Virus record (IMG/VR): IMGVR_UViG_3300040801_002149
Location: 1 to 37,473 of that record
Length of the DNA stretch: 37,473 nt
Direction: 5' to 3' (one strand)
Origin: a virus
Shown here piece after piece: positions 9,566 through 34,650 of this stretch (the first letter of the stretch is position 1; every line of letters starts with the position of its first letter). The translations under genes and the position numbers were made by a program. A model generated the notes under the pieces. The model was not told the DNA's origin and ran no database searches. It worked only from the letters and a program-made list of their open reading frames with translations.

Positions 9566-12500
9566 TTATTGTTTTGTTTTATTATTAGCAGCTTGTTGTT
9601 TTATCTGCAATTCTTTTTCTTTAAGCCTAGTATCAACCTCTTTGGATTGCACTTGCGCTTGGAGTTTCTCTCGTTCTAAAGTTTCTTTAGCAACACTATC
9701 CGCCTCTTTAGCTCCTATATTTATCTGAGCCACTTCGATTGCAGCGTTATAGTCTCTAATAGAATCTTCTTCTTTAATTCTTAATTCTTCTACTTTTAAT
9801 TCTCTCTCATTTGCAGCTATTTCTTGTTGTACAGCCAACTCTTCTTGTCTAGCTTGTGCTTCCATTTTCTGACGTTTTTGCTCTACTTCTTGTAGTTTAT
9901 TTTTAATATCTGATAAATTATTTGATGTAAGTATAGCAGCAACATCACTAAGAGTAGCCCCGTTTTGCATTGCTGGTTGTAACAATGATTTGAGCATTTC
10001 AATATTCCTATCTTCTACAGTTGGATCGTTTACAAATACATCAAAATCTGCAAACATAAAATCATCAGTAATTTCCATAAATACTCTAGTAGAGTCTGGT
10101 AAGAAATAATGTAATGATTTAAGATTAGAAGTACTCCATGCATACTTAGCAGTATCCAGAAGTTGATTTAAGAAATTCTTTTTAAGTAAATTAATTTGCC
10201 AAAATAATGGTTCAGTAATATGAGACGATTGTTGAACAGCCCTTTGTACGTTACCTACTAGCTCACTACTAGTAATACTACCTTCACGTTGTCTAGTTAC
10301 ACCAGACAATTCACCAATCATTTCTTCTATCTTATTCATTAAGTCTATGTACTGAACAATAACGTTAGACATAGTTAAATCAATAGATGAAAATTGATTG
10401 TAAGATGATGGCTTACCCCCCTCGCGTCCGGGGATGTCCCAGCCTGAATTATGTACTATAGTAAAATCTTCTAACAAAAATAAATTATCACCATCAATAG
10501 AAATACCATAGTAATCTCCAAATCCTTCTACTTCTACTTTAAAATTTGAATAGTCTTTATCTCCTCTTTTATTAGAAATAGGAGCTTGTTTTCTTTCTAC
10601 TAAAGTAGGAATTTCAATATCCCAATCTAAAATAGATAGTGACCAAGTAGGTTGGCACTGGGATATATTATCAGAATCTTGTATATATTTTTCATGATAC
10701 TTCCCATATGTATTAACCGTACATTTAAATCCTAAAGACCTAGCTATAAATGCAGCCTTTTCAACAATATGTTTACGATCTTCTGATTGAGAAAAAGTAT
10801 AAATATTATCTCTTTTACTATAGTGACCATCAGTATCGATTAAACCAGCTAATAATTTTAATCTATTTTCTCTGGACGTATAAATAAAATCTGAGGGTAT
10901 ATCTTTATTATTATGTATACCATATTCTTTTAACAATTCTAGAATTGGATTTTTAATTCCAGGTCCTTTGAAAATTCTAAAAGTTAGTACTTGTGAATCT
11001 TCTTTTTCTTTAGTACAAGAGAACTTTAAACCATTTGCTTCTGCATAACTTTCTAAATAGGAAGCTACTTCAGGATCAATATTAATTATTTCTGCTCTGC
11101 CTGTGTTACCGTCACCCAACCATAGCCCTAAAAGATAAGGGTCTAATTTTACTTCTGTATTCCAAGTTAAATCTATATTATTAGCTCTTTTAGTATACCT
11201 TAAATTAGCTTTATAGGGTTTAGCTTCTTCCTCTTCTATAAGTTCTTCAGCAGTCCTTAAACCTACCTTCCAAAAGTCAGTATAATATTGTTTTTCAAAA
11301 TAGTAATTTTTATGTGCGCTATTAACAACTTGATCAATAGCCCCACTACGATGTTTAAGTCTGTACATCATATCTCTGCCAGCATGAGTACTATGTACTA
11401 CCCTAGAAGACCCATCTGGACCCATTACCAAGTCATCTATTTGTATATCTTCTATACTCTTTAAAGTGCCATCAAACATTATTACTTTAGTACCTGGAGC
11501 AAAACATTCATGAGGATTGATAAAGTTCACACCCATTGCTGATAACATATGTAACCAACGATTAGTATCAACACCCATAGATTTAGGAATTTGAGTAATG
11601 TCCATTGTAATAACCTTGCCCTTATCCCTAGCTAAAGCCAACTCCAATCTATACCAAATAATTATGTACATGTACTGCAGTGACTTCATAATGTTAACCA
11701 ACGATCTACCTTTATATGGTATACCACAATAAGGTAATTTTTGAGAATTAGGATTGTCAATAGATACAGATTGGTATTCTACTGGCTGGACACCTACATA
11801 TAGGTCAGTCCCAATTCTATAACCTTCCCAAATCTCTACTACCCAATCCCACGTAATTTCTTCACTAGCATCTGGTTTATATGTTTCATCTACAACTTCT
11901 TCCTGTATTTCACCGCTCTCGTCTACATAGACTAAAAACCCCACTTTTTTATACGACCGCCATACACCATGGTAAACATTGAGCAACCCGTAACCGTACT
12001 CCTCACCTAAAAAACTATCGCTTGGTATTCTATCCCTGTACATGATAGACTTAGTGTTTACTTCACTACCAGTACTACTATCTTTATAAGATACCCCACC
12101 TTGAACCATTTCAAGCAATCTATCTAAATCAGATTCATCCATTAGGTCATAAAATCTATCATAAATCGCAGAAGCAGTCATTGGCATTCTTCTAACAAAC
12201 CAGTCACCATCTTCTATAAAGTCAACATCGGGGTCATTATCATATTCACAATACTTGGGGTCAACTCTTTCTGCTAACGGCATTCCATTTCTGATACCAT
12301 TGTAGATAATAGATTCCCCATTAATTAAATAATCTTTCCAAGCTTTAAGGAAAACATCTGGTAAGTTAAGTTTATATTTCAAGTAATTAAGTGAATGAAA
12401 AGCCAACTTTTCTGCAGGATTTTGATATTTAGCACGTATCTTCTGCAGCTCCTCATCTAATTGTTGTAGCTGGTCGTCCGTTAAATCCTCTTGCCCTGTC

Positions 12501-12904
12501 TGTAGAACATCGGCCATAAATTGTTGAATAGTCTGTTTAATTTCATCCTCTACCATTGAAACAGACTCATCGTTGGTCTGAATCACGCTATATGAATATG
12601 GACGTTTGGATTCTTCACCTATTAGTAAGTTAATTTTAGGTCGAATAATATTCATATTCTGGGGGGTAGCGGGAAAACTATCTTCAACTTTAAATGGGTC
12701 AGTTACATAACGTAAGTCATTTTCATCAAATATCCCTTCAAATAAATCTTGTTCTATACGTATACGTTCTCGCCTAGACCTGCCATCTGAAGCTGCCCTC
12801 GACTTTCTTGAAATAATTGCATCTAAAGATTGTTTCCCCCAATCTTCAGTTTTATCTCTCATTGATAGTTTCTGGGGAGGGAAACTTTTAGCATCTAAAT
12901 TCAT
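9566..12904 (-). CDS. Portal protein precursor containing a LAGLIDADG intein
   Basis: A 1112-residue frame that holds a portal of 759 residues split by a 353-residue intein. The N-extein (1-466) has a basic start, a helical wing region and KAWKDYLINGESIIYNGIRNG-type portal segments; the C-extein (820-1112) contains TSSELVGNVQRAVQQSSHIT and a long Gln/Glu/Lys coiled coil at the C-terminus (about 1015-1105), the crown/barrel region. The intein begins at Cys467 and ends at His818-Asn819, followed by Ser820, so splicing would join PHE to SGWDIPG. Portal forms the DNA gate at the head vertex. The gene lies 3 bp from the terminase stop. Portal identity is by size, order and context; intein identity by clear motifs. 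Confidence 0.88.
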   Translation of the reverse strand: MNLDAKSFPPQKLSMRDKTEDWGKQSLDAIISRKSRAASDGRSRRERIRIEQDLFEGIFDENDLRYVTDPFKVEDSFPATPQNMNIIRPKINLLIGEESKRPYSYSVIQTNDESVSMVEDEIKQTIQQFMADVLQTGQEDLTDDQLQQLDEELQKIRAKYQNPAEKLAFHSLNYLKYKLNLPDVFLKAWKDYLINGESIIYNGIRNGMPLAERVDPKYCEYDNDPDVDFIEDGDWFVRRMPMTASAIYDRFYDLMDESDLDRLLEMVQGGVSYKDSSTGSEVNTKSIMYRDRIPSDSFLGEEYGYGLLNVYHGVWRSYKKVGFLVYVDESGEIQEEVVDETYKPDASEEITWDWVVEIWEGYRIGTDLYVGVQPVEYQSVSIDNPNSQKLPYCGIPYKGRSLVNIMKSLQYMYIIIWYRLELALARDKGKVITMDITQIPKSMGVDTNRWLHMLSAMGVNFINPHECFAPGTKVIMFDGTLKSIEDIQIDDLVMGPDGSSRVVHSTHAGRDMMYRLKHRSGAIDQVVNSAHKNYYFEKQYYTDFWKVGLRTAEELIEEEEAKPYKANLRYTKRANNIDLTWNTEVKLDPYLLGLWLGDGNTGRAEIINIDPEVASYLESYAEANGLKFSCTKEKEDSQVLTFRIFKGPGIKNPILELLKEYGIHNNKDIPSDFIYTSRENRLKLLAGLIDTDGHYSKRDNIYTFSQSEDRKHIVEKAAFIARSLGFKCTVNTYGKYHEKYIQDSDNISQCQPTWSLSILDWDIEIPTLVERKQAPISNKRGDKDYSNFKVEVEGFGDYYGISIDGDNLFLLEDFTIVHNSGWDIPGREGGKPSSYNQFSSIDLTMSNVIVQYIDLMNKIEEMIGELSGVTRQREGSITSSELVGNVQRAVQQSSHITEPLFWQINLLKKNFLNQLLDTAKYAWSTSNLKSLHYFLPDSTRVFMEITDDFMFADFDVFVNDPTVEDRNIEMLKSLLQPAMQNGATLSDVAAILTSNNLSDIKNKLQEVEQKRQKMEAQARQEELAVQQEIAANERELKVEELRIKEEDSIRDYNAAIEVAQINIGAKEADSVAKETLEREKLQAQVQSKEVDTRLKEKELQIKQQAANNKTKQ
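10448..11506 (-). mobile_element. Intein with LAGLIDADG homing endonuclease, inserted in the portal gene
   Basis: It encodes residues 467-819 of the portal precursor. Block A is CFAPGTKVIMFDG at 467-479 with the nucleophile Cys first. Block B is QVVNSAHKNYYF at 525-536: the His is kept, but the usual Thr three residues before it is Asn. Two dodecapeptide motifs, LLGLWLGDG (591-599) and LLAGLIDTDG (684-693), keep both metal-binding Asp residues, so the endonuclease looks intact. Blocks F and G are FGDYYGISIDGDNLFLLEDF and TIVHN, then +1 Ser. All class 1 splicing residues are present, and the reading frame is uninterrupted. It should self-excise from the protein and could home into intein-free portal alleles. 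Confidence 0.93.
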
Positions 12905-22460: not shown

Positions 22461-22487
22461 AAATTCTTATTTATATTATAATATATA

Positions 22488-22503
22488 TTAATACATGTAT
22501 TAA
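22488..22503. promoter_or_regulatory. 16-bp perfect palindrome upstream of the leftward operon
   Basis: TTAATACATGTATTAA lies 28 bp in front of the first leftward ATG. On the minus strand a TATAAT (22480-22475) lies between it and the gene. It is a candidate operator or part of a leftward promoter. No Bacteroidota-type TAnnTTTG element was recognised with confidence, so promoter identity is uncertain. Confidence 0.4.
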
Positions 22504-22559
22504 CAATAACTTAACTGATACATATAAGAAAAGATAATAACACCATCCCCTCCCATGTG

Positions 22560-22795
22560 TAGTGAACCCCAAAAAGCATCTTAGCCCAGTCACCAATTGA
22601 CTGTAAGTATTCTACCTGGTCCAATAGTCCGCCGTTACTTAATTTGCACTGTGGCTAGGGAACTAAAGTTTGTTACTCTTATAGTAACTGACCAGTTTGA
22701 ACCTACCTTAAGGATTCAATAGTCTAGCTATCGTATATTCCATACTACGGTAAACTAAAACTAAGGTTGCGTTATTTAGTACTTTTTTTTAATAT
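22560..22795 (+). ncRNA. Candidate structured RNA ending in a T-tract, divergent region
   Basis: No credible gene. Perfect helices: CAGTCA-CCAAT-TGACTG (22587-22603); CTGGTC (22616-22621) with GACCAG (22690-22695), which encloses GTTACT-CTTAT-AGTAAC (22672-22688); ACTAAA with TTTAGT (22754-22780), followed by eight T at 22783-22790. The last hairpin plus T-tract is terminator-like on the plus strand. This could be a small non-coding RNA or a leader with an attenuator for the rightward genes. Strand is inferred from the T-tract. Confidence 0.45.
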
Positions 22796-23012
22796 TTTTT
22801 GTAAAACCCATATAAATACCCCCTATACCTTTATATATACAACTATCCCCCCCCCCTGTTAATACTATTAACATATATATAAACTAACACTATATATGTG
22901 GAAACGGTTATCACCCAAGAATCAACACCCCCTACTATGAGGCGGCGTCGAAGTCCCCGTACTGAAATTGTAGGGATTTCAATGTCATTTGTCTAACTTA
23001 AATTATACAGCT
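22796..23012 (+). promoter_or_regulatory. Gene-free leader with C10 run and alternative hairpins
   Basis: It holds ten consecutive C (22847-22856), hairpin GTTAAT-ACT-ATTAAC (22858-22872), a 9-bp stem ACATATATA / TATATATGT (22871-22879 with 22891-22899) that overlaps the former by two bases, and TGAAAT / ATTTCA (22963-22981). The rightward transcript should start here or just upstream. No promoter consensus is certain. Confidence 0.4.
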
Positions 23013-23168
23013 ATGTGTCGTCAACGTACTAAAGTAGTCAATGGAACAGCCTTTACTATTTGTGAGAAATGTCATAATAGTAATTGGTTTCCTACTAGGT
23101 TTATGGTCAATTACCATACAGTTAGTAGGTTAGTTTTCAAATCGCAGTATAAAGCATTAGCAGGGTAG
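23013..23168 (+). CDS. Small Cys-containing protein (51 residues)
   Basis: An open frame from ATG 23013 to TAG 23166-23168. The peptide contains C2 and a CEKCHNSNWF block at about residues 17-26, a single CxxC that could contribute to a small zinc site or a redox pair. It is basic overall. It would be the first rightward gene, behind the structured leader. No family is recognised and the frame is short, but the amino-acid composition is coherent and the gap would otherwise be 780 bp. Confidence 0.5.
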   Translation: MCRQRTKVVNGTAFTICEKCHNSNWFPTRFMVNYHTVSRLVFKSQYKALAG

Positions 23169-23208
23169 CCACCTTGCTATTTGCTAATTGTAAGCTACTT
23201 ATATAGCT
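23165..23208 (+). promoter_or_regulatory. Leader hairpins before the 81-residue gene
   Basis: GTAGC (23165-23169) can pair with GCTAC (23194-23198), and AGCTA-CTTATA-TAGCT forms a perfect hairpin at 23193-23208; the two are mutually exclusive. The element lies 31 bp before the ATG at 23240. It may be a small attenuator or translational control element. Confidence 0.3.
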
Positions 23209-23239
23209 AAGCACATACATATAACTAAATATCATCATC

Positions 23240-23485
23240 ATGGCAAAAGCATTAGTATTGTATGATGTACTACGTCATACAGCGTTACAACAACAAGGTA
23301 TTAATGTACTACCTGTTAGGTTAGTTCACATCACTGCAACTATTGTTCAAATAAAAGACACATTATTTGACAGTATTAACAACAGTGATGAGTATGTATT
23401 AATACTTGAAGAAATAACCAACAAACGTACAATACAACTCGATGAAAGGTTCAGTTTATTAAATGAATTAGTAATTGATTTGTAA
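23240..23485 (+). CDS. Hypothetical protein (81 residues)
   Basis: A small alpha/beta protein (MAKALVLYDVLRHTALQQQG, then INVLPVRLVHITATIVQI) with an acidic C-terminus. No motif, membrane segment or cysteine. The ATG is preceded by ATCATCATC, the best copy of the start-site motif seen in this arm. It is the second rightward gene and precedes the structured leader of the next gene. Function unknown; likely an early protein. Confidence 0.65.
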   Translation: MAKALVLYDVLRHTALQQQGINVLPVRLVHITATIVQIKDTLFDSINNSDEYVLILEEITNKRTIQLDERFSLLNELVIDL

Positions 23486-23490
23486 GGTTT

Positions 23491-23573
23491 AACAACTGGT
23501 AGGGGCACGTTCTTTATTTTCATTTGATAGTAGGTTAACGGTTTATACCAGCTTAATAATCCTATCAGTTGTT
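23491..23573 (+). promoter_or_regulatory. Structured 5' leader with 13-bp closing helix
   Basis: AACAACTGGTAGG (23491-23503) pairs with CCTATCAGTTGTT (23561-23573) over 13 bp with one G-U pair. The 57-base interior holds a GGT-TTAT-ACC hairpin flanked by TTAA/TTAA, and a competing GATAG/CTATC pairing that would open the outer helix. It lies 66 bp before the ATG at 23640. A regulatory RNA switch is plausible. Confidence 0.5.
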
Positions 23574-23639
23574 TTTAACTTCTATTATTTCCCACAATAC
23601 AATATACTCAAAAAATTAACTTATTTAAAGACATTTATC

Positions 23640-25018: not shown

Positions 25019-25048
25019 CTAGGGAATATGGGTAATAAAACAAAACTT

Positions 25049-25090
25049 AATGATGTTTACCTATTTATCATTCCAGCTTTAGCAAGTTGG
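25049..25090 (+). promoter_or_regulatory. Two hairpins in front of the tRNA-like element
   Basis: AATGAT / ATCATT (25049-25054 with 25067-25072) and CCAGCTT-TAGC-AAGTTGG (25073-25090, one G-U pair) lie back to back after the stop of the zinc-finger gene. No T-tract follows, so they are not typical terminators; they may be part of one folded RNA with the tRNA-like element behind. Confidence 0.4.
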
Positions 25091-25107
25091 TGTTGATTAT
25101 TTTAAAT

Positions 25108-25165
25108 AGCTATAATGGTTGTCTCTGAAATAATAGGAGATTAAGGTTCGATTCCTTTAATAGCT
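25108..25165 (+). other. tRNA-like element without D arm (relic or mimic)
   Basis: AGCTAT (25108-25113) pairs with ATAGCT (25160-25165) like an acceptor stem. TCTCT / GGAGA encloses a 9-base loop where an anticodon arm would be. The T-arm is clear: TTAAGG-TTCGATT-CCTTTAA with the canonical GGTTCGATTCC core. Only about 7 bases replace the D arm, and the anticodon-like loop lacks a normal 7-base U33 layout, so it is not a functional standard tRNA. It lies in the leader of the 56-residue gene. Confidence 0.45.
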
Positions 25166-25206
25166 TCTAATGTGAAATATAATCTTAACCATTAATATTC
25201 GTAAAT

Positions 25207-25377
25207 ATGCAAAAATCAATTGAGCGTTTTAAAACATTATCAACAAAACGTACTGGTTCTTTACAAGGTGAAGAATTAAGATTTAATCCTTTACAGTACA
25301 ACCGTAAAAAAGGCTTGACTAAAGCTGAAAGAGTTGAAAGACAGATACGTGTTAAACTTATACACTCTATACTCTAA
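25207..25377 (+). CDS. Small basic protein (56 residues)
   Basis: An open frame from ATG 25207 to TAA 25375-25377, and the last A is shared with the ATG of the next gene (TAATG), a strong sign that it is real. The peptide is very basic (MQKSIERFKTLSTKRTGSLQ, later NRKKGLTKAERVERQIRVKL) with a helical C-terminal half. It may bind nucleic acid. No family recognised. Confidence 0.6.
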   Translation: MQKSIERFKTLSTKRTGSLQGEELRFNPLQYNRKKGLTKAERVERQIRVKLIHSIL

Positions 25378-25571
25378 TGATCTCACCTATATTTAATCGG
25401 CTACAGTTTAGTGATATGCATGAAAATATTCGTATATCATATAAACTACATGAATTTGGCTTTGGACTAGAGTGGTTAGCTACTCAAACTAGTCAACAGG
25501 CTAATTTATTAGAAACATATGCTAGATTATTTTGGCTAAGGGAATTAGAAAGGAGTGTATGCCCAAACTAA
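25377..25571 (+). CDS. Hypothetical protein (64 residues)
   Basis: A small helical protein (MISPIFNRLQFSDMHENIRI; WLATQTSQQANLLETYARLF) translated by coupling from the 56-residue gene. It has one Cys and several Trp/Phe. A short amphipathic design suggests a protein-binding role, but nothing can be assigned. It precedes the 51-residue gene by 6 bp. Confidence 0.6.
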   Translation: MISPIFNRLQFSDMHENIRISYKLHEFGFGLEWLATQTSQQANLLETYARLFWLRELERSVCPN

Positions 25572-25577
25572 ATTATT

Positions 25578-25733
25578 ATGCTAAAAATTAAACTTGTTAG
25601 GCATTTAAATGGTAAATATGAGTTTATACGTACAAGGGTTGAGACTGATGGCACTGAAACAGTGTTATCATATTCTTTAGGTTCACCACCACCAAGTGGT
25701 ATAGTTTTTAAAAATATTAAAGTTTGTAGGTAA
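25578..25733 (+). CDS. Hypothetical protein (51 residues)
   Basis: An open frame from ATG 25578 to TAA 25731-25733, in a tight series (6 bp after the previous stop, 2 bp before the next ATG). The sequence is beta-rich and basic (MLKIKLVRHLNGKYEFIRTR; SYSLGSPPPSGIVFKNIKVC). No motif recognised. The spacing supports it being a gene. Confidence 0.55.
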   Translation: MLKIKLVRHLNGKYEFIRTRVETDGTETVLSYSLGSPPPSGIVFKNIKVCR

Positions 25734-25735
25734 AA

Positions 25736-25834
25736 ATGAATATTTCGGAGAAACACATCGGTAAAATTTTAACGGCTATTGTATTAGGTATTATGGTTGT
25801 TATATTAACATTTGTATTATTATGCAATCCGTAA
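25736..25834 (+). CDS. Tiny membrane peptide (32 residues)
   Basis: An open frame from ATG 25736 to TAA 25832-25834, overlapping the next ATG (25822) by 13 bp. After a short polar start (MNISEKHIGK) it is a single hydrophobic span (ILTAIVLGIMVVILTFVLLC). It could be a small holin-like or regulator peptide paired with the membrane protein encoded next. Short length keeps confidence low, although spacing and composition fit a gene. Confidence 0.45.
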   Translation: MNISEKHIGKILTAIVLGIMVVILTFVLLCNP

Positions 25835-30525: not shown

Positions 30526-31065
30526 ATGTCAAAATTATCACAACAAGTTAAAAATGAATTTGATGCATTAGATAGGATACTACTATATTCTAGGCATCTT
30601 ATTAAGCTTAAAGCTGCTAAGTTAAATCTTAGAATAGCTCAGTTTATAATGAATCGAACTACTAGTATTATTATTACTAACCGGGGATATTTAAAAAATA
30701 TTCTTACAGAAGTAGATATTAAGATTAAAGACATTGAACTTAAAATGGCTTTGCTTATTCGTCCCTACTTTTTACAGGCCAATTTAAAAGTACCAGAGAA
30801 TTTTCATGTAACAGAAGAAGAAATTTCAAAAGGTTATGTGGAAATTCACGAAACTCTCAATAATTTACTAATAGAATATATTTTATTTTTAAGAACAATT
30901 GATTTGGGGGATGAAATCATCTTTAAAAGAGGAGAAATACGTGAAAAAGCAAGTATTAAATCTCTACTTAAAGATATTCCAGAAGAAGATAGTAAAGTAG
31001 GTGTTGAAGGTAGATTACTTAAACACTTATACGCTAGCTTTAAGGATTTAAAAACAACTATTTAA
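30526..31065 (+). CDS. Helical hypothetical protein (179 residues)
   Basis: An all-helical protein (QQVKNEFDALDRILLYSRHL; SIIITNRGYLKNILTEVDIK; YVEIHETLNNLLIEYILFLR). It has no cysteine, signal peptide or membrane segment. It heads a three-gene unit with the 120-residue protein and the ANL-like protein. The leader carries stable hairpins. No family recognised; a helical partner or regulator of the following genes is conceivable. Confidence 0.65.
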   Translation: MSKLSQQVKNEFDALDRILLYSRHLIKLKAAKLNLRIAQFIMNRTTSIIITNRGYLKNILTEVDIKIKDIELKMALLIRPYFLQANLKVPENFHVTEEEISKGYVEIHETLNNLLIEYILFLRTIDLGDEIIFKRGEIREKASIKSLLKDIPEEDSKVGVEGRLLKHLYASFKDLKTTI

Positions 31066-31097: not shown

Positions 31098-31460
31098 ATG
31101 GAAAATAATAAATTAAATCAGTTTAAAGCACTGATTGAGAGTCTTTTGATTAATAGGCAAAACACATTTCGTAACAGTCATAATTTCGTTGAATTGGTTA
31201 TTCAATCAAGATTTATGGCTTTGTATAGTGAATTATGCTTTCATTTAGATAATTACTATAACAAGGATAATGTTACAATTGAAATTTTAGGAGAATTCGA
31301 TGAAATTGAGATTAGCTTGAAGTATCATTCTTATGCAGATCATGCTCGTCAAATAGTAATCGAAATACCCAGAACTGCTACTTATATTCGTATAAATAGA
31401 GTTGTTGATGGATTACGTGCTAAAATTACTGAAGAACCTATTAAATCAAAATTCGTATGA
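31098..31460 (+). CDS. Hypothetical protein (120 residues) coupled to the ANL-like gene
   Basis: A small alpha/beta protein: an N-terminal helical half (NQFKALIESLLINRQNTFRN, FMALYSELCFHLDNYYNKDN) and a C-terminal beta section (VTIEILGEFDEIEISLKYHS, QIVIEIPRTATYIRINRVVD). The stop TGA overlaps the ATG of the ANL-like gene (ATGA), so translation of both is coupled, a hint that the two products work together. No family recognised; it does not look like an acyl-carrier protein, since no D-S-L motif is present. Confidence 0.65.
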   Translation: MENNKLNQFKALIESLLINRQNTFRNSHNFVELVIQSRFMALYSELCFHLDNYYNKDNVTIEILGEFDEIEISLKYHSYADHARQIVIEIPRTATYIRINRVVDGLRAKITEEPIKSKFV

Positions 31461-32857
31461 TCAATCATTTGGCTTATATGCTTAATAACAAGTTATTTGA
31501 GAATAGTACAGTATCAAACAATATTAGGAAATTACAAAGTGTTTTAATGGAATATGATACTGAAACAAATCTCAATAACAAAGTACTATTACTTGGAAAA
31601 GACCCACAATCTTTTACAGCTAGTTTCTTAGCTTTATTAGAAATGGGTTTTGAAGTACATTTAGTACATCCTGATACCAATCGAACAGAATTGCAACGCA
31701 TATTAATTATTGAAGATATCTCTATTGGGATAGTTGATTCTAATCTCCCAATCATGGACGATACACAATTTATGCGTACAATGTTAGGTTTAGGTATCTA
31801 TATGCAAGATAGTACTGTATTTCACTCAGAATTGGATTTAAGGCCCTTTACAGAACGTTTAAGACGTAAAGACATAAGTTACTATGTAGTACACCACGTA
31901 GGGGTAGAAAATCCAGCAGAGAGCTCTAAAATAGCTTATAGAGACATAACCAATATTATCAATGGACTAAGAGAGTCTCAATTAGCAAATACTAAATCTT
32001 GGTTAGTAGGAGTGGATATATACAAATTTCCTGTATTATTTATTTTCTATCCAATTTTAGAAGGTAAGAAAGTTGATTTTTTTGATGCTCACGCTTCATC
32101 TACTAACTTAGTGGTTAAAATTAAAAAAAATCCATTAAGTCAAATTTGGATTGATGCAAAGAGTTTCATGAGTATGTGGGATAAATACTTTTCTAGTTTT
32201 TCTTCAAAGATTGTACAAAATTTATTAGGATACAAAATTACAAAGTTTTTTATTAAGCTTTGGTTAAAAACTAGGTTGGACACAATTCTAGGGGAACCTG
32301 AAGAAGTTATTATTTTAGCTTCTTCTATTCCTCTTTGGATTGAAAAACTACTTATAGAAATTAACTTCCCCATTACCATTACTTATGGTGCTACTGAATT
32401 TGGAAGTATAGTAACCTATAGTCATCCTATTGAAAGAATAGAGGGGACCGTAGGTAAAATATTACCAGATGGATTACAACTTGACAAAGATGTATTAATA
32501 CCCTATAAGGGACAAGTTAAATTTTTAGGTAGAACTAATAATTTAATTAATCCTAATAGTCATCTAACATTAGATATGTTAGAAAATATACTATCTGAAT
32601 TAAGTATTGTTAAAGAGGCACTTGCAGTAAAAAATGGAAATAAAATTCGTATTTTTGTATTACCATCTATTGATCATTTAGTACTGTACAGAATGAGTTT
32701 AAAACAATTTAAACAATTTCTGATACATTTACTAAATTACATGAAAAAGGAGTATTATTTAGATAATATAGTTATAGATAATATTATTATCTACACACAA
32801 TCATTTAGTAAAACACCTAATTCTACCATCAAAAGATGGATGTATAAATGGAAGTAA
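31457..32857 (+). CDS. Degenerate acyl-CoA synthetase-like (ANL superfamily) protein
   Basis: A 466-residue protein. NNKVLLLGKDPQSFTASFLA LLEMGFEVHLVHP at about 41-72 follows the ANL N-terminal pattern. IILASSIPLWIEKLLIEINF at about 285-304 matches the S/G-G-A-P-L-x-x-E region, and YGATE (310-314) is the A5 motif, followed by EGTVGKILPDG (329-339). LGRTNNLINPNS at 357-368 is A8-like, and KTPNSTIKRW (452-461) is the A10 segment. Two key parts are altered: the Ser/Thr/Gly P-loop is replaced by VVHHVGVENPAESSK (144-158), and the A10 catalytic Lys is Thr. Typical relatives have 550-650 residues. It may be a pseudo-enzyme or a lipid/CoA-binding effector, or an altered adenylase. The structured-RNA region starts directly behind it. 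Confidence 0.7.
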   Translation: MINHLAYMLNNKLFENSTVSNNIRKLQSVLMEYDTETNLNNKVLLLGKDPQSFTASFLALLEMGFEVHLVHPDTNRTELQRILIIEDISIGIVDSNLPIMDDTQFMRTMLGLGIYMQDSTVFHSELDLRPFTERLRRKDISYYVVHHVGVENPAESSKIAYRDITNIINGLRESQLANTKSWLVGVDIYKFPVLFIFYPILEGKKVDFFDAHASSTNLVVKIKKNPLSQIWIDAKSFMSMWDKYFSSFSSKIVQNLLGYKITKFFIKLWLKTRLDTILGEPEEVIILASSIPLWIEKLLIEINFPITITYGATEFGSIVTYSHPIERIEGTVGKILPDGLQLDKDVLIPYKGQVKFLGRTNNLINPNSHLTLDMLENILSELSIVKEALAVKNGNKIRIFVLPSIDHLVLYRMSLKQFKQFLIHLLNYMKKEYYLDNIVIDNIIIYTQSFSKTPNSTIKRWMYKWK

Positions 32858-32910
32858 AGAACTCTCCAATATAATAACATATTGATTATTAGTAATTCGT
32901 AAAATTTAAA

Positions 32911-33664
32911 TTAGGAAAGCTGTCCTCAATGAAGGAGGAATTAGTTGTACTAAGCTAATAATTGCCGCCTAATTGGAGGCGGGTAAGTATACATGAAAGG
33001 GTACACAAACTAGTATTTGCTTGTCACATGACAACTTATAATAGCCCTAGTGTTGACAAAGCACTTGGTTATATGGGTGTTAGTAGGTCGTCAGGAGGTA
33101 GGGTCAACCTAGTCCACAGAATGTATATGTTAATGAAAATATCCAAACGGTAGGCTCGTTGATTAATGTCAACAGTTATGACTAAGAAGTACTAGTTGCT
33201 ATTCTTAGCAAGCAGTTTCAATACTGAAGGAATTCAGTTAAAATCCTACGCTAAAGACTTCTTAGGACGGTAGCCAGCACTTCAACATTTTAGTTATGTG
33301 GTACTTCACATTAGTAAGAAACGCTGTCGTCTAATGTTTTAGTTAATTGTGAACACGGTTTGTCGTTTTTCAAATTTTTCAGATATACGATTCAGAAGTG
33401 CTTGGGGTGAAATCCAAGACAAGTAGCAATATAACTAACAAAATTCCTCTAGTAAAAGTACTTACTACCAGCAAGAAGAATGGCTGGAGTTTCAGATAAT
33501 GAGCAACGGGAAATTACTCAAAGGCTGAGACAATTATTAGGGTCAAATCTAATAAACAAAGAAAGTCCAAACTTAGTATACCGGACGTTATTGTGGGTAA
33601 CTATACATGTGAAGGCGACTAAGAGTTAGCATGTAGAAAGGTGTTCGTTAGGGATTACACCTTT
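32911..33664 (+). ncRNA. Candidate large structured non-coding RNA, domain A
   Basis: No credible gene; GC is higher than in the neighbouring genes. Helices in order: TCCTC/GAGGA (32923-32939), ATTAG/CTAAT (32940-32959), CCGCCT/AGGCGG (32965-32982), TTGTC-ACAT-GACAA (33021-33034), CTAG(T)GTTGAC/GTCAACCTAG (33047-33057 with 33103-33112), CTAAGAAGT/ACTTCTTAG (33182-33190 with 33257-33265) enclosing TTGCTA-TTCT-TAGCAA and ACTGAA-GGAA-TTCAGT, ACATTAG/CTAATGT (33308-33337), CTTGG/CCAAG (33401-33418), CCAGC/GCTGG (33468-33487), TTATTAG/CTAATAA (33534-33555), TACATG/CATGTA (33604-33635), AAAGGTGT/ACACCTTT (33637-33664). Large ornate phage RNAs such as GOLLD and ROOL are known; whether this is one cannot be told by eye. 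Confidence 0.65.
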
Positions 33665-33710
33665 TAGTTAAAATAAAAAAAGACCTTATACCAAGTTAGT
33701 AATTTTCTTA

Positions 33711-34060
33711 AATTACATTGTATTGTAGCCACTCAATACACCATTTTCATAAATGTACAAGGATAAGTAAGGTTAATTACCTAGAGGTGCTGAAAATATG
33801 TCTCCAAAGCATATTTAAAAACTTATCTATATTATGCACTTACACAAGTAAATACTTGTTAATCACAATTTTGAACTAATGTAGAATGGGATTTAAGTAT
33901 GGATACTTAAGTCTGCGTACGACATTTTTAAATCGGCGAGTTATCCAAGGTAGTGCAAAGGAACCTAATTGACTTATATTGGCAACATATATAAGTTCTT
34001 TCTATACTCTGCGGACGTAGATACGGTAAATTAGGTGTCATTAAGTTGACTTCGTAGGTT
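33711..34060 (+). ncRNA. Candidate structured non-coding RNA, domain B
   Basis: Helices: TGTATTG/CAATACA (33719-33740); a three-way junction closed by GATAAGT/ACTTATC (33762-33768 with 33821-33827) and holding AGGT/ACCT (33770-33782) and AAATATG/CATATTT (33794-33816); ACAAGT-AAAT-ACTTGT (33844-33859); ATTTAAGTA-TGGA-TACTTAAGT (33891-33912); CTGCGTACG with CGGACGTAG (33913-33921 with 34012-34020, one mismatch, one G-U) enclosing ACTTATAT/ATATAAGT (33972-33996); and GTAGG-TTGGAAT-CCTAT (34053-34069), which resembles a tRNA T-arm. It may be a continuation of domain A or a second RNA. The rest up to 34206 shows nothing firm. Confidence 0.55.
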
Positions 34061-34206
34061 GGAATCCTATACTCATCATCAACAGGATTTAAAATGTGAA
34101 GTTGTGTACAATTACAAGGAATTTACAAATATTTCTAAATTTGACTTAGTTGAAGGTAAACCTTGATCCCATATTTTTCCTTTATTTTATACTTAACATT
34201 AATTTT

Positions 34207-34650
34207 ATGGAAGTAAAGTATACATTGTGTGGACGCACAGTAGGAAAGTATAAAGCCAATGGAAAAGATGTGGACAATTACCTAGGTGGTCGTAAACTTA
34301 TCTATAAGAAATCATGGTATAGTCATCAAGTACCAAAAAAGGATTGTAAATTTTTACATTCATTGTTTAAAAGGATACATCCAAAACTTGGACATTGGCT
34401 TGAAGAGCCTTACTATATGTCTGAATATGTAGTATTTTATAATCCATATAAATCTGTTATAGATAGTAGTATTAGGTCGAAAGCCTATGGTAAGAAAAAC
34501 ACACCTTTTAGTAATGTATGGTTAATAGTTGCAGGCAATCCTGAAAATATTGCTCAAATTATTTCCAAAAGTATCATTATGGATCCTAAAACAACAAAAA
34601 TGTTAAACCAAGAAAGTGAATCATTTATAATTGATGAAGCACCTTTTTAA
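34207..34650 (+). CDS. Hypothetical protein (147 residues)
   Basis: A soluble alpha/beta protein from the ATG at 34207; a TTG at 34150 would add a hydrophobic stretch derived from the leader and is rejected. It is basic, with aromatic clusters (KLIYKKSWYSHQVPKKDCKF; YMSEYVVFYNPYKSVIDSSI) and a conserved-looking VWLIVAGNPENIAQIISKSI strand-loop-helix at about 106-125. No family recognised. It is the first gene after the candidate large RNA. Confidence 0.65.
   Translation: MEVKYTLCGRTVGKYKANGKDVDNYLGGRKLIYKKSWYSHQVPKKDCKFLHSLFKRIHPKLGHWLEEPYYMSEYVVFYNPYKSVIDSSIRSKAYGKKNTPFSNVWLIVAGNPENIAQIISKSIIMDPKTTKMLNQESESFIIDEAPF

Follow-up and report, generated by a model that had tools for sequence, protein, structure and literature searches.

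GOLLD is a large phage RNA that often lies near tRNA islands, with "many members exceeding 800 nucleotides" (PMC12286853). GOLLD and ROOL form RNA-only cages, and ROOL is multimer-forming in cryo-EM (PMC12286853). The candidate RNA considered here resembles ROOL as a large structured phage RNA and GOLLD as a large, elaborate phage-encoded RNA, and the Suoliviridae operons compared below carry tRNAs and tmRNA. It differs from GOLLD in lacking an Rfam match, in its length of 1.1-2.5 kb and in its gene context, and from ROOL in lacking an Rfam match, in being larger and in lying in another context. There is also a likeness to Y RNA and YrlA, the partners of Ro60 (TROVE), because a TROVE/Ro60-like gene adjoins a 0.9 kb CDS-free stretch in crAss001 (Steigviridae); Y RNAs, however, are about 100 nt long, and in the other groups tested the gene adjoining the stretch showed no TROVE domain.

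Few human gut viruses are more abundant than the crAss-like phages, and the majority of their genes are without a known function. The window, that is, the whole stretch of DNA analysed, is an entire IMG/VR virus record of 37,473 bases, and its phage is crAss-like as judged from its proteins. The major capsid protein (MCP) shares about 65% identity with its counterparts in cr118_1 and cr114_1 (Suoliviridae, Uncouvirinae) and 77-78% with those of environmental IMG/VR contigs, including the relatives G001 and G008, and its portal and terminase match phage families of crAss-like kind. The locus and its neighbours comprise the following features.

30526 to 31065, plus strand: conserved gene of 179 aa, family A1 (phmmer/hmmsearch matches in G003, G004 and G005)
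31098 to 31460, plus strand: conserved gene of 120 aa, family A2 (family-profile hmmsearch, with the window protein included in the profile)
31457 to 32857, plus strand: gene of 466 aa assigned to the ANL (AMP-binding) superfamily, directly upstream of the stretch (Pfam/NCBIfam)
32858 to 34206, plus strand: CDS-free stretch, candidate large structured RNA (no credible ORF in any frame; position conserved in relatives)
32964 to 32982, plus strand: GC-rich hairpin GCCGCC/GGCGG near the 5′ end (in the MFE structure)
33401 to 33418, plus strand: hairpin CTTGG-GGTGAAAT-CCAAG (sequence inspection)
33890 to 33913, plus strand: 11-nt inverted repeat GATTTAAGTAT/ATACTTAAGTC, 10/11 complementary
33972 to 33996, plus strand: hairpin ACTTATAT-TGGCAAC-ATATATAAGT with a GCAA loop (sequence inspection)
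34054 to 34070, plus strand: T-loop-like hairpin GTAGG-TTGGAAT-CCTAT (best match to model R2 in the region)
34207 to 34650, plus strand: conserved gene directly downstream, family A4 (phmmer in G003, 1e-6; hmmsearch in G004 and G005)

Coding capacity and folding of the stretch

The stretch runs from the stop of the 466-aa gene (32857) to the ATG at 34207 and is 1349 nt long, or 1292 nt should the alternative TTG at 34150 be the start of the following gene. The earlier note had seen no credible gene in it, and this holds: stops number 32-38 per frame in all six frames against a shuffle mean of 35.5, the longest ORF starting with ATG, GTG or TTG is 63 aa, and reading through TAA, TAG or TGA opens nothing longer than 117 codons. 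An alternative genetic code was therefore rejected, as no stop reassignment opens the stretch. The note's remark that the genome has almost no gaps was overstated, since with genes taken as ORFs of at least 90 aa two more stretches are uncovered, 22461-23639, which lies where the two operons diverge, and 25019-25821. The GC content of the candidate stretch is 0.34-0.36 against about 0.29 around it, as expected for a structured RNA. Searches for tRNA and tmRNA gave no match in the stretch. Its DNA matched nothing convincingly among 50,697 phage records, an exact-pattern search in IMG/VR and the records of 33 kin gave no convincing similarity either, and no alignable homologue was found in DNA searches or in the gaps of the relatives.

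At least fifteen helices had been counted in the stretch by the earlier note. Hairpins with stems of at least 7 Watson-Crick pairs are indeed in excess, with 10 against 4.6 ± 2.0 in dinucleotide shuffles, and the MFE z-score of the region is -3.8 (100 shuffles) or -2.8 (18 shuffles). However, the minus strand reaches -4.25, coding controls from the same genome give -8.96 in one case and -1.5 and -0.1 in others, and 200-nt folding windows across the stretch are unremarkable. Thermodynamic stability was thus rejected as proof of an RNA, the controls being equally stable, and helix content by itself does not establish an RNA here because the minus strand and one coding control fold still lower. 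T-loop-like hairpins number one in the stretch against 0.16 in shuffles. The hairpin at 33401-33418 is similar, in a comparison by eye, to a GGTGARATTCC hairpin found in G003 and G004.

Conserved place behind ANL genes

A scan for the major capsid protein yielded the long records G001-G009, in each of which the CDS-free stretches were listed. The order of a 179-aa gene, a gene of 115-127 aa, the ANL gene, the gap and the A4 gene is common to the window, G003, G004 and G005, and the CDS-free stretch between ANL and A4 measures 1509 b in G003, 1656 b in G004 and 1487 b in G005. Direct matches of the ANL gene in the window are weak (Pfam AMP-binding, 0.0025; NCBIfam menE-like, 5e-5), while its homologue in G004 matches Pfam AMP-binding at 1e-12; the ANL assignment is solid in G004 and passes to the window gene by this homology. 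The earlier note was right that an ANL-like gene precedes the stretch and, as examination of the sequence confirmed, that no terminator or promoter clearly separates the two. With phmmer, the A2 protein of the window by itself found no match in the relatives.

In G001 and G008, an ANL-family gene (35% identical between the two; Pfam AMP-binding, 2e-5 and 1.3e-5) is followed at once by 1129 and 1198 b without CDS, and homology searches found the A4 gene absent from both. Five relatives (G001, G003, G004, G005 and G008) therefore have an ANL gene directly 5′ of a CDS-free stretch of 1.1-1.7 kb, and the window falls in this ANL group, since its own ANL gene lies on the same strand right before a stretch within that range. 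The enzymes are divergent, menE/acyl-CoA-ligase-like members of the superfamily of 466-549 aa in the window and these five records. As single queries in IMG/VR, the 466-aa protein, the 147-aa protein and the exonuclease of the window found no relatives, and no counterpart of the window ANL protein was found in GTDB genomes. G002 has a CDS-free stretch of 1312 b at a similar location, with no ANL gene recognised beside it; 2.2 kb downstream of it comes a homologue of the A8 family, whose place in G003-G005 is 3′ of the gap. This stretch (45389-46700, L110; 1.31 kb) has a GC content of 0.416, well above its kin. Strong terminator-like hairpins end the stretch at its 3′ side in G001 and G002. The stretches of G001 and G008 share a 5′ hairpin around ACTGAYTAGCG (positions 45/47), followed in both by the T-arm-like AAAGAGTTNNAATCCC (709/615), and both contain GGTGTAAA further on (859/945).

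Within the ANL group only G004 and G005 form a close pair, and direct alignment of four ANL-group gaps gave nothing meaningful beyond them. The core of their gaps is 97% identical over 1.24 kb, whereas their ANL genes are 80% identical. Because this identity sets in at about position 416 of the G004 stretch, that position may be taken as an approximate 5′ boundary; the segment just upstream of the core is poorly alignable. Since the downstream genes are also well conserved in parts, a recombination effect may contribute to the conservation of the gap. The two-sequence consensus structure turns the 35 substitutions into six double compensatory pairs and three one-sided changes, with none broken. 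When the substitution pattern was moved along the sequence and the structure re-optimised each time (40 shifts), double changes averaged 0.8 with a maximum of 3 (n=40), against the 6 observed, and the alifold energy was -250.0 ± 6.7 against -271.2 for the actual pair. The exact structure is uncertain because the number of compensatory changes varies with the structure chosen: the single-sequence MFE structures of G004 and G005 give 1 or 5 double changes and 7-8 broken pairs.

The CDS-free stretch of Suoliviridae

A gap of 1.85-1.92 kb downstream of the sigma factor occurs in cr114_1 and cr118_1. A second set of loci was anchored on this factor and comprised 12 annotated Suoliviridae genomes from five subfamilies (cr114, cr118, cr6, cr1, cr10, cr130, cr7, cr56, cr50, cr53, cr131 and Bohxovirus) together with loci from an IMG/VR scan. 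With small variations, the gene order is sigma, about 120 aa, gp094, about 150 aa, CDS-free stretch, p185 and p180b; gp094 and p150 were not recognised in the divergent loci L144-L153. In 67 loci of Suoliviridae and kin the stretch immediately precedes p185 and usually measures 1.7-2.5 kb. All 67 have both the sigma and the p185 gene, and none contains a plus-strand ORF above 104 aa within the 1700 nt ahead of p185; the longest such ORF per locus has a median of 56 aa. Minus-strand ORFs across these loci are also mostly short (median, 66 aa), so the antisense ORFs of 160-168 aa annotated in the stretch of two Oafivirinae, L076 (9379-9861, minus strand) and L194 (9357-9863, minus strand), are probably spurious. 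In all checkable relatives of both groups, a gene-free stretch of 1.1-2.5 kb is kept in place.

An alignment of 57 sequences of this set shows conserved blocks distributed over its full length, and RNAalifold windows give many helices with changes on both sides, again along the length. All eight pairs (8/8) of a stem-CGCAA-stem hairpin covary, one pair of the GATCC/GGATG helix in the 5′ domain has 13 double changes, and a T-loop hairpin is paired in 100% of cells, with 19 double changes against 5.5 when shuffled. The covariance model of this T-loop hairpin (model R2) matches the G006 copy, which was outside the training set, at E = 0.0014. The operons around the stretch carry tRNAs, a permuted tmRNA, RAGATH RNAs and Hatchet ribozymes in several genomes; RAGATH-7, -7-assoc, -9 and -22, Hatchet ribozymes and permuted tmRNA are seen in L002, L072, L073, L076 and L132, variable between genomes. 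gp094 has no known domain or fold match by Pfam and PDB comparison: its AlphaFold model (pLDDT 75.8) bears a weak local KH-like resemblance that is not significant, and its identification as a TROVE/Ro60 protein was rejected for want of a Pfam match or a significant PDB match of the model.

The Suoliviridae stretch is like that of the window in being non-coding, probably structured and at a fixed place on the plus strand of the operon, and T-loop hairpins may be a further likeness, but it is about 2 kb long and has other neighbour genes. The flanking proteins of the two groups are unrelated by HMM-HMM comparison, and searches of the window for sigma, gp094, p150, p185 and p180b (hmmsearch, hhalign) were negative or marginal. 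The 179-aa gene of the window, first assumed from matching gene sizes to be the Suoliviridae sigma factor, was rejected as such by BLAST and HMM comparison. A nucleotide profile of the whole Suoliviridae RNA (nhmmer) has no match in the window. Model R1 (5′ domain, GATCC/GGATG helix) matches G007, cr114_1 and cr118_1 and has no match in the window or in the gaps of G001-G005 and G008. Model R2 (T-loop hairpin, then UAUUCGUGCA) finds only its hairpin part, at 34055-34069, with E = 0.37 per 1.35 kb, which is not significant. Homology of the two RNAs is unproven, because the profile and both covariance models miss the window's copy, and the case for an RNA in the window therefore rests on its conserved position. 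By inspection, the hairpin at 33972-33996 resembles the covarying CGCAA hairpin of Suoliviridae. T-loops are common in large RNAs, so this GCAA resemblance and that of the T-loop hairpins are only leads.

Interpretation and alternatives

The stretch in the window probably specifies a crAss-like phage RNA that is non-coding, structured and large (about 1.3 kb). This reading, which the earlier note had drawn from helices that are no proof of it, is the best one because the position of the gap is conserved, the gap of G004/G005 is more conserved than the ANL gene, and compensatory changes are found in that pair and in Suoliviridae. The RNA would have the orientation of the flanking genes and follow the ANL-family gene immediately. 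At this position relatives hold non-coding structured sequence, which is 1.1-1.7 kb long in the ANL group and mostly 1.7-2.5 kb in the Suoliviridae group. It would be transcribed as a discrete and stable RNA, made with early or middle genes, and the window's copy may have the same role as the RNA of the relatives.

The compensatory changes require base pairing within a single strand, and the stretch always lies between same-strand genes. Both points speak against a cis-acting DNA element or spacer (a replication origin, or a site of recombination or packaging) that holds its position but makes no functional RNA, and such an element is unlikely even though the gap sequence becomes unrecognisable from one lineage to another at an unchanged position, and the minus strand folds as strongly as the plus strand in the window. 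If the stretch were instead a long regulatory leader of the downstream gene (A4 or p185), or a 3′ UTR of the ANL gene, and not a trans-acting RNA, its place just ahead of a conserved gene in both groups and the lack of a clear promoter or terminator in the window would be accounted for. Yet the downstream genes differ between groups, the terminator-like hairpins of G001 and G002 stand at the 3′ end of the stretch, and known leaders are far shorter than 1.1-2.5 kb, which makes a leader or UTR improbable.

Degenerate protein genes or pseudogenes would fit in length, since one or two lost genes could fill the stretch, but they are very unlikely: stops occur at random density in all frames, the relatives have no protein-coding stretch at the equivalent place, and between G004 and G005 the stretch has changed less than the ANL gene. 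A known class that Rfam misses through divergence would suit the size class and the T-loop-like hairpins, which many large RNAs have. The earlier note had named GOLLD and ROOL as models and RNase P and introns for checking, but cmscan of 32800-34250 against 4227 Rfam families found no match up to E = 10, hence none to GOLLD, ROOL, OLE, RNase P or group I/II introns. The search works, because group I introns were detected by it elsewhere in the relatives; moreover, no Rfam family covers the Suoliviridae RNA, and L140 gave only chance miRNA-like matches. A missed known class is thus extremely unlikely, and the new class that the note had offered beside GOLLD and ROOL is the better half of its guess. 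The candidate would accordingly be a new class among large structured phage RNAs, and a search of the literature (open papers, with subscription papers and preprints mostly outside its scope) found no report of such an RNA in crAss-like phages.

As to the function of such a large structured RNA, analogy suggests that it may work like GOLLD and ROOL while being a member of neither. Because of this analogy, a stable and abundant scaffold-type RNA, forming an RNA-only or RNA-protein particle during infection, is the role considered most likely, and it is put forward tentatively. The adjacent ANL or gp094 protein is perhaps a partner of the RNA, a guess from neighbourhood. It is a more speculative and rather doubtful idea that a single giant RNA, inherited from a common ancestor, is present in all crAss-like phages of both groups. 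Such an RNA would be of rRNA size (up to 2.5 kb), bear T-loop hairpins like those of tRNA, have diverged in sequence and not in place, and form a phage RNP with lineage-specific partners encoded next door (the ANL enzyme, gp094 and possibly the Ro60-like protein of crAss001). If the large-RNA reading is true, an RNA of 1.1-2.5 kb would be among the largest known non-coding RNA classes outside the ribosome, larger than GOLLD, with a fixed place in two large crAss-like groups. Conservation of the Suoliviridae RNA is sufficient to build a curated covariance model.

Two further elements were seen in these genomes. The portal gene of the window (9566-12904, minus strand, 1112 aa) matches the portal family over residues 1-466, and matches of residues 476-735 to stretches of terminase, helicase and primase families suggest an intein within it; its G007 counterpart is 1222 aa. 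In crAss001 (L196), a tRNA-like element lies within the 0.9 kb CDS-free stretch (45965-46869) beside the TROVE/Ro60-like gp96. It scores 46.6 bits over 144 nt, carries some 70 additional nt and is a candidate for an RNA of the Y-RNA/YrlA type.
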